This document shows, in pieces, positions 5,209 through 42,690 of a DNA stretch of 64,000 bases (within the stretch, counting starts at the first letter, position 1; the number at the start of each line of letters is the position of its first letter). A program made the translations under genes and the position numbers. The stretch is from Verrucomicrobiia bacterium (GTDB lineage Bacteria > Verrucomicrobiota > Verrucomicrobiia > Verrucomicrobiales > Akkermansiaceae): assembly GCA_947462875.1 (NCBI GenBank), contig CANHQJ010000017.1, positions 1 to 64,000 of the forward strand, in the 5' to 3' direction. The notes beneath the pieces were generated by a model that was not told the DNA's origin, did not search any database, and saw only the letters and a list, made by a program, of their open reading frames with translations.

Positions 5209-5273
5209 CAGCCTTCGCCAAGGCCTCGTCGGTCAAGCCATTGGCTTGCCAGCCGAAGCCTTGGCGAAGGCTG
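5209..5273. repeat. 16-bp perfect inverted repeat at the 3' end of ssrA
   Basis: CAGCCTTCGCCAAGGC (5209-5224) is the exact reverse complement of 5258-5273, separated by 33 bp that contain a smaller palindrome (AAGCCATTGGCTT). The right arm touches the last bases of the tmRNA. It may terminate or process ssrA, or be a REP-like element. Confidence 0.6.
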
Positions 5274-5623
5274 GAGGCGAGGGGAGTCGAACCCCTGTCC
5301 GAAACGCCGTCGGCACTGACATCTACACGTTTAGCATGGGGTCGGTGATTCGGAGAAACTCGGCCCTCATGCGGCGTCGTTTTCCTAGGAACCTGTGGTT
5401 TCTCAGCAATCCATCCGGTTCCCCGACTTCATGCCCAGCCTGTTAAGTGTCGCCTTCCCCCCCAACAGGCGTCAGGGTTCAGACGTGGCCGTCAATTAAG
5501 CAGCCAGTGCGAGCTCGTTAGAGTCTGCATTTATTTGTTTTGATCGGCTATTAAGGAGGCCAACCGATCAACCTCCACGTGCAGTCAGCGCGTCAAACGT
5601 CCCGTCGAAACCAGAACGCCCCC
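5272..5623 (-). ncRNA. ssrA: tmRNA (transfer-messenger RNA)
   Basis: Rescues stalled ribosomes by acting first as tRNA-Ala and then as a short mRNA. On the minus strand the 5' end reads GGGGGCG at 5623 with the conserved GGTTTCGACGGGA block just after it. The 3' end carries the T-arm (GGGGTTCGACTCCCC) and CGCCTCC, which closes the acceptor stem; the discriminator A is at 5272. CCA is not encoded. The tag reading frame starts at GCA (5528-5526) and gives ADSNELALAA then TAA (5498-5496), ending in the usual LALAA-type degradation signal. It is a standard one-piece molecule of about 352 nt. The codon pair TCT-AAC in the tag contains the CTAAC core discussed in the findings. Confidence 0.93.
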
Positions 5624-37646: not shown

Positions 37647-38648
37647 ATGACCAGCCCTTCTTGGAACCGTCGCAGCTTTCTCACCGGCTCCGCCGCCTTG
37701 CTCTCGCAGTTGGCCACGTCCGCCGCCGCCGAGCCACCCGCCGCCACGGCAGCGGCGCCGTTTCGCAATCCGAACGTCTATCGCTTCCAGATCGGCGACA
37801 TCGAGGCATTTTCCATCAGTGATGGCCACTCGCTGATTCGTCCGGCCATGGGCATGATGCATCCGGAAAGCGACCGCCCGCAGATGCAGGCCGTGATGGA
37901 ATCGCACTTCGAGCGCCTCGATGGCATTCCGCTCTATGTCAACATCCTCGTCCTGCGCAAGGGCAAGGAAGTGGCGGTGTTCGATGCCGGATTTGGCAAA
38001 TGGCCGAACCCGAACTGGGGCTGGTTTTTCGAGGCCCTCGCCTCCGTGGGCATCCAGCGCGGCGATGTGACGGCGGCCTTTCTGAGCCACGCGCACATCG
38101 ATCACATCGCTGGTTTTGTCACCGACAATGCGATCACATTCCCCAACGCGCAATTCTACTGCACCCAGGAAGAACTCGATTTCTGGTTCTCGCCCGAGCC
38201 GGATTTTTCCAAATCCAAGCGCGACAAACGCGAGCTCCCGGGCCTGACGCGCGACAACCGCAAGCGCTTCGAGATTCTCAAGCCCGTCACGCAGGTGCTC
38301 AAGGATGGCAGCTCCGTATGGAATGGCGACATCCGCCTGGAGCTCGCGCCCGGCCACACCGCGGGGCATGCGATTTTCCACATCCAGTCGAAAGGCGAAA
38401 AACTGCTCCACATCATGGACCTCGCGCACCATCACCTGCTGATGTTTGCCAATGTCAACTGGACCATCGCCTTCGATCACGATCCCGAGCTCGCCGTCGT
38501 CACGCGGAAAAAAGTCTATGGCCGCGCCCTAACGGAAAAAACCCGCTTGTACGGCTTTCACCTGCCCTGGCCCGGTCTCGGCCATCTGGGCTCCACCGCC
38601 GCCGATTCCTACGTGTGGATTCCCGAGCGCTACTCGTGGGGATCGTAA
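37647..38648 (+). CDS. Exported metallo-beta-lactamase-fold hydrolase
   Basis: A 333-residue protein with a Tat-type signal (RRSFLTGSAALLS) followed by an Ala-rich cleavage region. The zinc-site motif is FLSHAHIDHIAG at about residue 150, then GHTAGHAIFH near 238 and a further HHH region, as in lactonase- and glyoxalase-like enzymes of this fold. Known members include lactonases and esterases; which reaction this one performs cannot be told. The RNA-like repeat cluster starts directly after its stop. Confidence 0.88.
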   Translation: MTSPSWNRRSFLTGSAALLSQLATSAAAEPPAATAAAPFRNPNVYRFQIGDIEAFSISDGHSLIRPAMGMMHPESDRPQMQAVMESHFERLDGIPLYVNILVLRKGKEVAVFDAGFGKWPNPNWGWFFEALASVGIQRGDVTAAFLSHAHIDHIAGFVTDNAITFPNAQFYCTQEELDFWFSPEPDFSKSKRDKRELPGLTRDNRKRFEILKPVTQVLKDGSSVWNGDIRLELAPGHTAGHAIFHIQSKGEKLLHIMDLAHHHLLMFANVNWTIAFDHDPELAVVTRKKVYGRALTEKTRLYGFHLPWPGLGHLGSTAADSYVWIPERYSWGS

Positions 38649-38708
38649 GGAGAAAAAAAATTATCGATTTTAGACAACCCCGCCTCCTTCCGACGTTATT
38701 ACTGTGAA

Positions 38709-38790
38709 AGTGATCGATTGGTTTTATGGGTTTTTCCAACGATGACTATCAAACACAGAGCGGGCTGACTTCAACAGAAGTCAGCCCGTT
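38709..38790 (+). ncRNA. Diverged member of the repeated small-RNA family (copy 0)
   Basis: AGTGATCG (38709-38716) pairs with CGATGACT (38740-38747), with one mismatch, around a loop that keeps the TTGGTTTT...GGGTTTTTCC core of the other copies plus two extra bases. A 12-bp terminator-like stem follows: CGGGCTGACTTC, loop AACA, GAAGTCAGCCCG (38761-38788). Its sequence is unrelated to that of the other three but the layout is the same. No conserved upstream box or GG-N10-GC element is seen, and the T-run is weak. It may be the 3' end of the preceding gene's transcript. Confidence 0.5.
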
Positions 38791-38832
38791 CGCCGTTATC
38801 CTGCCCAATGTGGGGTAGGATGATTTCGATAG

Positions 38833-38880
38833 AAATTTTTCATACTGCGATCTTTTGAAAGAATTGGCACGCCACGCGCT
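38833..38880 (+). promoter_or_regulatory. Predicted sigma-54-like promoter, small-RNA copy 1
   Basis: AAATTTTTCATA (38833-38844), exactly 19 bp, then TTGGCACGCCACGCGCT (38864-38880) with GG and GC spaced by 10. The predicted start is near 38891. The same box, spacing and element recur at 40319 and 41161. Confidence 0.55.
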
Positions 38881-38890
38881 TATACTTTTT

Positions 38891-38981
38891 TGTCATTGAT
38901 TGGTTTTGGGTTTTCCGACAGTGACGCAAAAAGGGGCGGTGAATCGATCGAGTATCAAAGGATTCGCCGCCCTCTTTTTTT
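38891..38981 (+). ncRNA. Predicted small RNA, family copy 1
   Basis: About 91 nt. Hairpin 1 is GTCATTG (38892-38898) with CAGTGAC (38919-38925) around the loop ATTGGTTTTGGGTTTTCCGA. Hairpin 2 is the terminator: GGGCGGTGAATC (38934-38945, one G-U pair) with GATTCGCCGCCC (38961-38972) followed by a run of eight Ts. The loop and terminator are almost the same in copies 2 and 3, while hairpin 1 changes on both sides in step. I do not recognise the family. Confidence 0.7.
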
Positions 38982-39080
38982 GTACTAACAGGAACAAACC
39001 GCCACTGGCATTCTCGGGGACAGAAAACACATGCTTGCTGAAATCCGAGACATCTCATAAAACAGGTCAGAAGAAGAACC

Positions 39081-39698
39081 ATGACTTTCTCCGAATTCAA
39101 ACAACTCATCGCCAGTCAGCCGGACGGTGTTGTGCTGCTGGAGGGGCGCCGGTCCATTTCCCCCGAGGACTATGAGCGGGCCAGAATATTGGCCCGTCAG
39201 CTCGCGCTTCAGTTCCCGCGGCTTCGATTCCGGTCGGGCAATGCCGAGGGATCCGATCAGGCGTTTTCCGAGGGGGTGGCCGAGGTGGACGCGAGCCGCT
39301 TGCAGGTGGTTGCGCCTTATGCGACCCATCGCAAGGCCGCGCGTTATGCCGACGCGCTGTATGATTCTCCCGCCTCGATGTCCAAGGTGCAGCTGGATGA
39401 GGTCGCCTACAAGACGATCAACGCCACTCCCGGAAATGTGAGATTGATTGAGAAACGGGACACGCAGGGACGTCTTGCGGCGAAGGCGGCTTATTTGATC
39501 CGGGACACGATGAAGGTCGTGGGTCACTCGGAGGCTTTTGTGAAGCCAGTGTGCGCCTTGTTTTATGTGAAGCCCGAAGAGCCGATGGAAGGAGGCACGG
39601 GCCACACGATCCGGGTCTGCCAGCAGGAAGGGGTGCCCGTGGCCTATCAGGATTCATGGTCGGAATGGATCGGTGAATCATGCCGAAGCGTTTTCTAG
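39081..39698 (+). CDS. SLOG/Rossmann-like nucleotide-binding domain protein
   Basis: A 205-residue soluble protein. LRFRSGNAEGSDQAFSEGV around residues 50-70 matches the SLOG-type phosphate-binding region (G-x-A-x-G-S/T-D) of the DprA/LOG superfamily, preceded by the strand VVLLEGRRSI and followed by LQVVAPYATHRK. Known: SLOG proteins bind or cleave nucleotides and nucleotide signals, and occur in conflict systems. It is 100 bp downstream of small-RNA copy 1 and followed by an SRPBCC gene. Exact function unknown. Confidence 0.65.
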   Translation: MTFSEFKQLIASQPDGVVLLEGRRSISPEDYERARILARQLALQFPRLRFRSGNAEGSDQAFSEGVAEVDASRLQVVAPYATHRKAARYADALYDSPASMSKVQLDEVAYKTINATPGNVRLIEKRDTQGRLAAKAAYLIRDTMKVVGHSEAFVKPVCALFYVKPEEPMEGGTGHTIRVCQQEGVPVAYQDSWSEWIGESCRSVF

Positions 39699-39786
39699 CA
39701 GGTCTTTTCCTCCTGTGTCCTTTCCCCCGTGAGCAGCGTTTCTTTTTGCCCTGCGGGTGAATGTGCGGTAGGTTCGTTCCGAGAAA

Positions 39787-40278
39787 ATGCCGCTGATCAC
39801 AATCGAAACGCTTATCAACGCACCGATGGAGCGCGTGTTCGATCTCGCCCGGAGCATCGATGCCCACATGGCCAGCACGGATGGCACGGAGGAGAGGGCC
39901 GTGGCAGGTCGCACCACGGGCTTGATCGGGAGGGGCGAGAGCGTCACGTGGGAGGCGAGGCATTTCGGCATCAGGCAGAGACTGACAGCGCACATCACCG
40001 CGTTTGATCGACCACATCTGTTCCGTGACGAGATGCTGACGGGTGCGTTTGCCGTGATGCAGCATACGCACCGGTTTTCGGCAGCAGGAGACGGAACCTT
40101 GATGGTGGATGAATTTGCCTTCACCGCGCCCCTGGGGTGGATCGGTCGCATGGCCGAGCGTCTTTTTCTAACGGCATACATGCGGAGATTCCTCACCAGC
40201 AGAGCCTCACGATTGAAAGACATGGCCGAATCCGACAAGTGGCGGATGTATCTGAACGATGCGGCGGCTGAGAAATGA
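39787..40278 (+). CDS. SRPBCC (START-like) superfamily protein
   Basis: A 163-residue protein with the polyketide-cyclase/START-like layout: TIETLINAPMERVFDLARSIDAHM at the start, a central GESVTWEARHFGI strand pair and a long C-terminal helix. Known: this fold forms a pocket for hydrophobic ligands. Nothing points to a ligand. It lies between small-RNA copies 1 and 2, followed at 40304 by a TTTTGTTAGA copy. Confidence 0.75.
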   Translation: MPLITIETLINAPMERVFDLARSIDAHMASTDGTEERAVAGRTTGLIGRGESVTWEARHFGIRQRLTAHITAFDRPHLFRDEMLTGAFAVMQHTHRFSAAGDGTLMVDEFAFTAPLGWIGRMAERLFLTAYMRRFLTSRASRLKDMAESDKWRMYLNDAAAEK

Positions 40279-40318
40279 TGTAAACTCCTTGGTGTTGATC
40301 TCGTTTTGTTAGAGAAGA

Positions 40319-40366
40319 AAATTTTTCATAGGTCACATTCCTGAAAAAGTTGGCACGCTATCCGCT
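40319..40366 (+). promoter_or_regulatory. Predicted sigma-54-like promoter, small-RNA copy 2
   Basis: AAATTTTTCATA (40319-40330), 19 bp, then TTGGCACGCTATCCGCT (40350-40366), with GG (40352-40353) and GC (40364-40365) spaced by 10. Predicted start near 40377. Confidence 0.55.
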
Positions 40367-40376
40367 CTCTTTACGG

Positions 40377-40466
40377 CGTGGCTGTTTGGTTTTGGGTTAT
40401 CCGACAGTCGCCCAGAAGGGGCGGCGAATCGATCGAGTATCAAAGGATTCGCCGCCCTCTTTCTTT
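40377..40466 (+). ncRNA. Predicted small RNA, family copy 2
   Basis: About 90 nt. Hairpin 1 is GTGGCTGT (40378-40385) with ACAGTCGC (40404-40411), with two G-U pairs, around TTGGTTTTGGGTTATCCG. Hairpin 2 is GGGCGGCGAATC (40419-40430) with GATTCGCCGCCC (40446-40457), perfect 12 bp, then TCTTTCTTTT. The spacer between the two terminator arms is conserved with copies 1 and 3. The following 40467-40602 contains nothing recognised. Confidence 0.7.
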
Positions 40467-40602
40467 TGTTTCGATGGTCGAGCTGTGATGTCCGCCGTAT
40501 TGGGCGGCGCTCGAATCCGGCGCGATGATGTTTTTTTTTCTGGCAAAAACGACATGCGCATGAGAATTTCACGCATTCGTTTTTTTCCTAACACTTCCTT
40601 CC

Positions 40603-41100
40603 ATGAAAAAATCCTCTCTCATCAGGACCATCGCATCGCTCGTGATCCTGGCTGTGATGGCAGCGCTGGTGTTTTGGTACGTGGGGCATCGTCCGATCGC
40701 CTACCATAACAGCACGCTGCGTTCGCTGATCGGCAGCGCGTCCCAGTTGGAAGTCTCCCGTGCGCCGCATTTCGGAGCGGATGGATTGCTGGTGGAACCT
40801 GCGGCTGCTGTGATCATCACCGATCGCTCCGAGATCGACCGGATTCTCCGCTGCTTCGAACTTCCTCTCTCCCGTCGGGCGTCCGGCTTGTTTCATGAGT
40901 GCGGTGGGCATTTGGTGATTCGAATCAAGTCGCCGGAGGGCACGGAATCCGTGATTCGCTATGATCACGGAAAAATGTTCCATCCGATCAGCAAAGAAGG
41001 CGAGTATCCGGGCTACTGCCACCTGCCCGTTGAGACCTGCCAGGAGTTGAACGGGATATTCATCGTCCGCGGTTTCAGTCAGCGCGACATCGGATTTTAG
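40603..41100 (+). CDS. Membrane-anchored hypothetical protein
   Basis: A 165-residue protein with a single N-terminal membrane helix (about residues 9-28, uncleaved anchor or signal) and a soluble extracytoplasmic body. The body has one Cys at about residues 87, 104, 147 and 151 and no recognised motif. It lies between small-RNA copies 2 and 3. Starts at ATG 40603 after AT-rich sequence with a CTAAC core. Confidence 0.65.
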   Translation: MKKSSLIRTIASLVILAVMAALVFWYVGHRPIAYHNSTLRSLIGSASQLEVSRAPHFGADGLLVEPAAAVIITDRSEIDRILRCFELPLSRRASGLFHECGGHLVIRIKSPEGTESVIRYDHGKMFHPISKEGEYPGYCHLPVETCQELNGIFIVRGFSQRDIGF

Positions 41101-41160
41101 GCTGACGGCTTGAGTAATCTTTATGACCGCTCATTCCCTGATGATTGGGGACTGTGAAGA

Positions 41161-41208
41161 AAATTATTCATACCACCCCATTTCGCCAAAGTTGGCATGG
41201 CAATCGCT
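41161..41208 (+). promoter_or_regulatory. Predicted sigma-54-like promoter, small-RNA copy 3
   Basis: AAATTATTCATA (41161-41172), 19 bp, then TTGGCATGGCAATCGCT (41192-41208) with GG (41194-41195) and GC (41206-41207) spaced by 10. Predicted start near 41219. Confidence 0.55.
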
Positions 41209-41218
41209 ATCTTTTGGG

Positions 41219-41309
41219 CGTGACTATTTGGTTTTGGGTTATCCGATAGTCACCCAAAAGGGGCGGCGAATCGATCGAGTATCACAGGATTCGCCGCCCT
41301 CTTTCTTTT
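41219..41309 (+). ncRNA. Predicted small RNA, family copy 3
   Basis: About 91 nt. Hairpin 1 is GTGACTAT (41220-41227) with ATAGTCAC (41246-41253), a perfect 8-bp stem, around TTGGTTTTGGGTTATCCG. Hairpin 2 is GGGCGGCGAATC (41261-41272) with GATTCGCCGCCC (41288-41299) then TCTTTCTTTT. Its end meets the stop of the convergent metallophosphoesterase gene at 41309. Confidence 0.7.
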
Positions 41310-42115
41310 CAGGCATCGGGTGCCAGCTTCCAGGCGGCTAACGCAATGCCGCGCTGCCAGACGCCGCGTTTTTTTTCGATCACGCCGACACTCAGGGTGT
41401 TTTCCTTCCATTCCGTCCAGTAGGCGGAACCGGGTGGCATGAAGGAGCCGCTGTTGATGACGGCGGGTAACTCTTTGTCCCAGATGCCGCTGCGATGAAA
41501 GTGTCCGCATACGATGATCGCCGCATCGGGGAAATAGCGCCGCGCGAAGGCCCGCGTTTCCCGCACCATGGTGAGCCATGCGGCGATCATGCGCCAGGCG
41601 CGTCCGGGCGGGGTGACCGCATCCCAGATCCGGGCGAAAATGTTTCTACTATGAGGATAGTAGGGAGGGACGAGGAATTGCGCCACTTCTTTCGCCAGCG
41701 CGAAGCGTTGTTCCAAGGTGTCCTGTGGATAACGGCTGATGAGTTCGCGCAGTTCGTCCTTTTTCTGAATCGCTGTGCGGCTCCAGGGTGCGACCTCGGG
41801 GAAGACGGTATCGCCGTGCATGACGACGATTTTACCCGCTGCCAGCGTGATATAATCGGCATCGCGATTGCCGGGATCGTGATTGCCCGGGAGGGAGATG
41901 ATCTCGATGCCGAGACGTTGGCAAAGCGCCTGCAGGTCGCGCCACAGGCGCAGGCCGTCATCGTGGAACTCGCGCGCGAGCTCCTGCCAGGTGTCGCCAT
42001 TGAGCACGAGCGTGGCGGCTCCGCGCAGCAGGGGCTCGAGCGCGGAGACGTCATCGAGCGACGAGGCCTTGTGGCCGAGGTGCAGGTCCGAGAGGATGAG
42101 CACGGGCTCCTTCAT
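41309..42115 (-). CDS. Calcineurin-like metallophosphoesterase
   Basis: A 268-residue protein. Metal-binding motifs appear in the family order: LSDLHLGH (residues 8-15), LNGDTW near 38, SLPGNHDPGNRD near 75 and CGHFHRSG near 210. Start at ATG 42115 (MKEPVLILSDLHLGH); the longer frame extends into the next gene. Known: such enzymes cleave phosphomono- or diesters. Its ATGA (42112-42115) overlaps the stop of the methyltransferase gene, so the two are coupled. Confidence 0.9.
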   Translation of the reverse strand: MKEPVLILSDLHLGHKASSLDDVSALEPLLRGAATLVLNGDTWQELAREFHDDGLRLWRDLQALCQRLGIEIISLPGNHDPGNRDADYITLAAGKIVVMHGDTVFPEVAPWSRTAIQKKDELRELISRYPQDTLEQRFALAKEVAQFLVPPYYPHSRNIFARIWDAVTPPGRAWRMIAAWLTMVRETRAFARRYFPDAAIIVCGHFHRSGIWDKELPAVINSGSFMPPGSAYWTEWKENTLSVGVIEKKRGVWQRGIALAAWKLAPDA

Positions 42116-42690
42116 GACATCTTGCGCTGGCGCACCGCTTCGTAGAGGCAGATGCCGGTGGCGACGGAGACGTTGAGGCATTCGACTTTTCCGGCCATGG
42201 GCAGCTGGCAGAGGAAGTCGCAGTTTTCCTCGGTCAAACGGCGCATGCCCTTGCCCTCCGCGCCCATGACAAGGGCGATGGGGCCTTTCATGTCCATTTG
42301 ATAAATCGATTTATCGCACTTGTCCGAGGTGCCGATGATCCACACGCCGACTTCCTTGAGCTTTTCCATGAAACGGGCGAGGTTGGTGACTTGGAAAAAC
42401 GGCACCCAGTCGGCGGCGCCTGTGGAAACACGGCGCACGGTCTCGGTGATGGAGGCGGCCTTGTCCTTGGGCGCGACCACGGCCGTGACGCCGGCGCCAT
42501 CGGCGGTGCGGAGAATGGCGCCGAGATTGTGCACGTCCTGGATGCAATCGAGAATCAGCACCAGTGGCACGGGAGTCGCGGCGAGGAGGTCCCAGACATC
42601 GTCTTCATTGCGTGCGGGGATGGCTTCGGATTCCGGAGCGAGGGAGCGCACGTGGCGGTTTTCGCGCGCGGCATCCGTGCGGTCGCGCAT
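42112..42690 (-). CDS. SpoU/TrmH-family RNA 2'-O-methyltransferase
   Basis: A 192-residue SPOUT enzyme (203 or so if the upstream TTG at 42729 is used). The three family motifs are clear: NLGAILRTADGAGV near residue 52, LVMGAEGKGMRRL near 136 and LPMAGKVECLNVSVATGICLYE near 160. Known: methylates a ribose 2'-OH in rRNA (RlmB type) or tRNA, using S-adenosylmethionine bound in a knot. Which nucleotide is modified is not known. It follows pdxJ with a 21-60 bp gap on the same strand. Confidence 0.9.
   Translation of the reverse strand: MRDRTDAARENRHVRSLAPESEAIPARNEDDVWDLLAATPVPLVLILDCIQDVHNLGAILRTADGAGVTAVVAPKDKAASITETVRRVSTGAADWVPFFQVTNLARFMEKLKEVGVWIIGTSDKCDKSIYQMDMKGPIALVMGAEGKGMRRLTEENCDFLCQLPMAGKVECLNVSVATGICLYEAVRQRKMS

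Follow-up and report, generated by a model that had tools for sequence, protein, structure and literature searches.

The locus considered here raises the question of what governs three closely similar small RNA (sRNA) sequences that are each preceded by the same series of short conserved blocks. The window, that is, the whole 64-kb stretch of DNA that was analysed, belongs to contig C17 of a 3.95-Mb host genome (G000). Searching it with the pattern AAATTWTTCATA-N19-TTGGCAYG-N5-CGCT gave exact matches at 38833-38880, 40319-40366, and 41161-41208; with as many as three mismatches allowed, the pattern was found nowhere else in the window and not once in 100 shuffled windows. These matches confirm the claim of the first-pass annotation that an AT-rich box stands exactly 19 bp ahead of the promoter in all three copies. 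Its count of 10 bp between GG and GC was likewise correct for all three, although the N7 gap that it gave between TTGGCAYG and CGCT was a miscount: the true gap is N5, and the N7 pattern matches no copy exactly.

All three units lie on the plus strand. In the first, the box (AAATTTTTCATA, 38833..38844) is an exact pattern match 19 bp from the predicted sigma-54 -24/-12 promoter of sRNA A1 (TTGGCACGCCACGCGCT, 38864..38880), which carries 14/16 of the consensus weight, a score reached by 7/2000 shuffles. The putative sRNA A1 itself (38891..38981) consists of a loop hairpin and a terminator hairpin, with a fold z of -4.4, covariation, and a score of 113 bits against covariance model R1, which was built from these same sRNA sequences. 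The second unit comprises an exact box (40319..40330), a promoter predicted by consensus scoring and pattern match (TTGGCACGCTATCCGCT, 40350..40366), and sRNA A2 (40377..40467; fold z -4.3, R1 match). The third has the same make-up, with an exact box (AAATTATTCATA, 41161..41172), a promoter predicted by the same two means (TTGGCATGGCAATCGCT, 41192..41208), and sRNA A3 (41219..41309; fold z -5.3, R1 match). In all three units, the ~90 nt after the promoter are much more stably folded than their shuffled versions (z -4.3 to -5.3). Taking the C of GC as -12, the predicted +1 positions are 38891, 40377, and 41219, and the first stem bases of hairpin 1 are 38892, 40378, and 41220, so that each start lies 1 nt ahead of the hairpin base on which the first-pass annotation had placed it.

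The cluster is flanked by a metallo-beta-lactamase-fold gene (37647..38648, plus strand; Pfam PF00753) and a convergent calcineurin-like phosphoesterase gene (41309..42181, minus strand; PF00149), a conserved neighbourhood that recurs in G003 and G006; in the host genome, additional genes are interspersed among the three sRNA copies. A combined promoter-plus-loop pattern yielded nine matches, the named relatives among them being metagenome assemblies of Akkermansiaceae (Verrucomicrobiota), while two of the nine, one in Nitrosospira and the other in a Nitrospirae bin, are apparently fortuitous. Going by isolate names, these Akkermansiaceae relatives are probably lake bacteria.

The sRNAs A1-A3 and their relatives (type A) were collected with RNA-only queries that start downstream of the promoter (blastn; covariance model R1), and the resulting 14 RNAs are spread over seven members of the genus (genomes G000, G001, G003, G004, G006, G007, and G008). 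Every one of the 14 has TTGGCAYG-N5-(C/T)GC upstream, with GG and GC 10 bp apart. When the 100 nt upstream of each copy were scored against the textbook sigma-54 consensus, with 2000 dinucleotide shuffles as a control, the best site in every copy (n=14) lay 31-33 nt from the hairpin reference point and earned at least 14 of 16 points, a score that 0-10 of the 2000 shuffles reached. In 14/14 copies, hairpin 1 has its first stem base 0-2 nt downstream of the predicted start. Mean pairwise identity among the 14 copies was 0.96 for the -12 element and 0.62 for the box, as against 0.31 for the spacer, 0.37 for the N5 gap, 0.30 for the leader, and 0.25 for the flanks, in keeping with the claim that the DNA between box and promoter is barely conserved; the 0.98 identity of the -24 element holds by construction, as this element was the alignment anchor, and is not independent. 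Spacer and leader have drifted nearly to background while promoter, box, and loops were held, a picture of selective conservation, and since the 14 copies are homologous the identities speak to that conservation and not to a number of independent events.

Considered as a whole, the three units are very probably sigma-54 promoters with a fixed proximal protein site, each starting a ~90-nt two-hairpin sibling sRNA; we regard this as the best explanation of the locus. The feature taken here to define a sigma-54 promoter, a -24 element of the TTGGCACG type whose GG stands 10 bp from GC, is present in 3/3 copies in the window and in 14/14 type-A copies. One consensus base departs from this picture: C precedes GC in 13/17 aligned sRNA sites, where the sigma-54 consensus has T (tTGC). 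This T is a non-invariant position of the consensus and not a defining one, so its absence lowers membership among sigma-54 promoters without removing it.

The box had been singled out as a second conserved site, and it is indeed found at or beside the same place in 13/14 type-A copies. AA-N4-TTCAT stands at the exact place in 11 of the 14; a further copy (G006A2) has one mismatch, and in G007A1 the box is shifted by one base. The copy that lacks it is the second RNA of a pair on contig C9 of G008, just downstream of a box-bearing type-B RNA. Scanning 387 genomes of the order for TTCAT-N20-TTGGCAYG-N6-GC produced 14 sites in this genus, 13 of which precede these RNAs (12 of type A and one of type B, in G003); the fourteenth, on G003 C95, has near-identical counterparts with one mismatch in G000, G006, and G009, which suggests coding DNA. 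Within the host genome, the scan proposed in the first-pass annotation finds exact sites ahead of the three sRNAs only. AA-N4-TTCAT-N20-TTGGCACG also occurs before the type III glutamine synthetase gene (glnN) in three close genomes of another Akkermansiaceae genus, g3 (L271-L273), which may count as a single event and is best treated as a lead.

On the opposite strand, the box reads (T/C/A)ATGAA-N4-TT. It departs from the IHF consensus WATCAA-N4-TTR by one base, with G always in place of C. HU/IHF-family genes (PF00216) number two or three per genome in 10/10 genomes, and IHF often assists in looping the DNA so that activators reach sigma-54 promoters (PMC7057263). In the hcp (type VI secretion, T6SS) promoters of Vibrio, an IHF site YAA-N4-TTGATW lies 16 bp from the sigma-54 motif (PMC5963220). 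The arrangement here is alike in having an IHF-type site at a short fixed distance before -24/-12, with AA-N4-TTCAT 20 bases before TTGG (19 after the final A of the box); it differs in one key base (TTCAT instead of TTGAT) and in serving small RNAs rather than protein genes. Because of the IHF-like order of its bases, the Vibrio hcp precedent, and the presence of HU/IHF genes in all ten genomes, we favour the reading that the box is most likely a bending site of the IHF/HU type with fixed geometry.

Two other readings of the box deserve attention. It may instead be the binding site of the enhancer-binding activator itself, placed unusually near the promoter, which we hold to be quite possible if not the probable case. 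A search for upstream activator sites found the proximal box to be the sole conserved element upstream of the sRNA promoters, and the 260 bp examined contain no shared distal dyad except, in three copies, a weak TTTCA-N13-TGAAA; an RtcR-type palindrome near rsr in the host genome likewise lies close to its promoter. Activator sites are, however, usually located 100-150 bp upstream (PMC7057263), and the box is asymmetric, its conserved bases following the IHF-like order ATGAA-N4-TT. That the box is an AT-rich contact for the alpha subunit of RNA polymerase (an UP element) seems rather improbable: its AT-richness and its location about 47-58 bp upstream of the predicted start would suit such a role, but TTCAT is exact in 12/14 copies and shifted by a base in one more, which exceeds what bare AT-richness would need.

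As for the promoter itself, the three units are best read as sRNA genes grouped under sigma-54 control, an interpretation supported by the gene content of the genome as well as by the element. The host genome encodes RpoN on contig C11, with activator-interaction (AID), core-binding (CBD), and DNA-binding (DBD) domains (PF00309, PF04963, and PF04552, respectively). PF04552 was found in 18/19 relatives; rpoN was not detected in G008, a genome with sRNA copies, which may reflect assembly incompleteness. Three enhancer-binding AAA+ activators (PF00158) are encoded on contigs C23, C27, and C16. The C27 protein is NtrC-type, with a receiver and a Fis-type HTH, and its gene adjoins that of a PAS-histidine kinase. 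The C23 protein has a receiver that, as read from sequence, carries Ser at the expected position of the phosphorylated Asp; a sigma-54 activator with this apparent substitution (L148 3049-4533) is conserved in the genus. With rpoN and three activators in the genome and the element in all 14 type-A copies, the claim of several sRNA genes under sigma-54 holds up, and the word regulon, which had also been used, is apt for several sibling copies plus a related type-B RNA in two other genomes, though in no wider sense.

The C16 activator is RtcR, which was rejected as the activator of the type-A sRNAs since it occurs only in G000, G005, and G009, and type-A RNAs are present in other genomes. RtcR-controlled RNA-repair operons are established sigma-54 targets (PMC9879122, PMC7790460). 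In G000, rtcR and a Ro60-like gene are divergent (L150 1974-5353); the DNA that separates them contains the element of the sRNA units (TTGGCACGCACCATGC), and the pair has a sigma-54 promoter and the palindrome CATTGGTAAATCAATGG. At C17:91078 (L137), a palindrome like this one is found past the sigma-54 element.

The element is not confined to sRNAs. TTGGCAYG-N6-GCT has 108 matches across the genus vs 44 for the reversed control, and the same -24/-12 element precedes the Amt gene in G000 and G009 and the P-II (glnB) gene in G001, G002, G004, and G007, both of which, like the RtcR-linked Ro60-like gene, belong to the classic targets of sigma-54. The nitrogen genes of Verrucomicrobiales (amt, PII, and glnN) thus share the TTGGCACG-N5-YGC element with the sRNA units, and the Akkermansia-like glnN also has AA-N4-TTCAT at the same distance. 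They differ in being protein genes and in the base ahead of GC, which is T in their -12 element (as in the amt, PII, and rsr promoters) and C in the majority of sRNA promoters; those amt and PII promoters of the genus that were inspected are without a box at that distance.

Could the housekeeping sigma factor transcribe these RNAs from an unrecognised promoter, with TTGGCAYG...CGCT being the site of another DNA-binding protein? The related RNA types B, D, and E, described below, do look sigma-70-driven, and TATAAT-like bases directly follow CGCT in some copies (e.g., TATACT in copy 1). Against this, the TATA-like bases are not conserved among copies, and a sigma-70 scan of 38650-41350 found no -35/-10 promoter, on which ground a sigma-70 promoter for the type-A sRNAs was rejected. 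What is conserved, moreover, is precisely the two doublets of a sigma-54 promoter at the distance typical of one, and the element also precedes known sigma-54-type genes in these genomes. We therefore consider such transcription very unlikely. Less likely still, and barely credible, is that the hairpins are functionless terminators or repeats conserved through recent duplication, for although the copies are tandem and local in the host genome, hairpin 1 covaries, copies are kept across at least seven genomes of the genus, and spacer and leader retain little more than background similarity, in contrast to promoter, box, and loops.

With sigma-54 control of the type-A units as the preferred reading, the RNAs themselves can be placed in a wider family. 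Alignment A2 (not to be confused with sRNA A2) supports two helices, with 93.8% of cells paired and 8 double-sided pair changes vs 3.2 in shuffles. The loop of hairpin 1 is nearly invariant (GGUUUUGGGUU(U/A)UCC), and that of the terminator hairpin, CGAUCGAGUAUCAAAGG, is conserved as well. No Rfam covariance model, Qrr included, matched the sRNAs at gathering score, and nothing meaningful appeared at a permissive threshold; a known RNA family was thus rejected as their identity, and the predicted two-hairpin sRNAs are, on the alignment, a covarying RNA family new to Rfam.

Just upstream of unit 1 lies a type-B small RNA (38706..38790, plus strand; fold z -5.2), which shares the loop GGTTTTATGGGTTTTTCC with type A, has another terminator, and in G000 is without a sigma-54 promoter; orthologs occur in G001, G003, G004, G006, and G008. 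Box and sigma-54 promoter precede the type-B RNA in G003 and G008, and an AGACA-containing upstream region takes their place in G000, G001, G004, and G006. Two further loop RNAs, types D and E, lie on the minus strand of host contig C25 (52032 and 52230, 198 bp apart; L263, C25:51000-53500). For type D, the promoter is of the TTGACG type, a GTCGCAAGTCGAC-like element lies close to the expected start, and covariation is seen in an alignment of family members. Across the order, TGGTTT-N1..3-GGGTTTTYC is clearly commoner than its reversed control, part of the matches being coding. In genera g7, g10, and g13, the matches inspected each consist of one terminator hairpin tipped by the loop, in most cases preceded by a TTGAC-type promoter, and genus g11 has four related RNAs after TTGGCACGRGYRRTGCT, a sigma-54 element. 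Loop relatives therefore extend across Akkermansiaceae, many with sigma-70-type promoters. Related loop RNAs thus appear, by their predicted promoters, under different sigma factors, and this promoter difference offers an example of sRNA genes that have passed from one sigma factor to another.

From these data we infer transcription of the sRNAs, their RpoN dependence, the choice of activator, the role of the box, and the target. Each sigma-54 (RpoN) promoter would start a ~90-nt two-hairpin sRNA at the base of the first hairpin. Sigma-54 RNA polymerase would wait at TTGGCAYG-N5-CGCT as a closed complex until opened by an enhancer-binding ATPase, either the NtrC-type protein encoded on C27 or the activator on C23, and the AT-rich box 19 bp upstream, as a DNA-bending site of the IHF/HU type, would help bring that activator to the promoter. 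The three sibling RNAs would together supply more copies of a single conserved loop (GGUUUUGGGUU), whose action is probably in trans and independent of Hfq, through base-pairing or through capture of a protein. Such trans action is suggested by the retention of the loops among the siblings, in which most of the remaining sequence is not kept. Hfq (PF17209) was detected in 0/10 genomes of the genus while control proteins were detected, so the class of Hfq-dependent sRNAs, which presupposes Hfq in the genome, does not apply. The loop complement AACCCAAAACC was tried as an mRNA target and rejected, as it shows no clear excess over the reversed control after matches to the RNAs' own genes are discounted; a genus-wide search for the exact complement gave no 5'-UTR or other recognisable mRNA target, and its intergenic matches pointed to the RNAs of types D and E, which are encoded on the opposite strand. 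As most recognisable genes with the same promoter element in the genus are nitrogen genes, our first guess at the inducing signal, offered tentatively, is nitrogen limitation acting through the NtrC-type activator on C27. Equally tentative is a broader picture, in which Akkermansiaceae would possess an Hfq-free sRNA system with a shared loop (GGUUU-N-GGGUUUU-YCC) and several RNAs per genome; sigma-54 would govern part of its genes in two genera or more, in one of them with a dedicated bending site at fixed distance, so that both the housekeeping sigma and a stress signal of the nitrogen type would feed into the same RNA output.

Sigma-54-controlled sibling sRNAs are already known as a kind, while the RNA family here is previously undescribed. 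The Qrr sibling sRNAs of Vibrio, for example, depend on sigma-54 and LuxO (PMC10162802, PMC2680268). They resemble the present RNAs in being several near-identical sRNAs, each with its own sigma-54 promoter that needs an enhancer-binding protein. Qrr RNAs rely on Hfq, whereas the three-copy sRNAs here have no Rfam relation to them, another RNA structure, and no detectable Hfq in the genus. GlmY, an sRNA of enterobacteria, depends on sigma-54 and has QseF activating sites upstream (PMC6075780); it is an unrelated RNA, and the present system differs in its three sibling copies and fixed proximal box. Four non-coding RNAs were assigned to sigma-54 in the Desulfovibrio vulgaris regulome, with the consensus tGGcacg / tTGCt (PMC4641369); these belong to a different phylum and are likened to ours by promoter consensus, not RNA sequence. 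We found no description in the literature of a sigma-54-controlled sRNA in Verrucomicrobiota, those described being from Proteobacteria and Desulfovibrio. The family is of interest as one conserved in the genus, with loop relatives across Akkermansiaceae, the family to which Akkermansia belongs, and no detectable Hfq, and its clear promoter and predicted start make the sRNA units directly testable.

Three minor observations were made along the way. A tmRNA gene occupies 5269-5623 of the window on the minus strand, and an open frame on host contig C28 (L147 337-2004) looks like Cas9 when judged by eye. A single-hairpin RNA found family-wide (L185-L201, L209-L220) has a conserved GTCGCGAC palindrome just before the hairpin, which is possibly an operator or a 5' RNA element.
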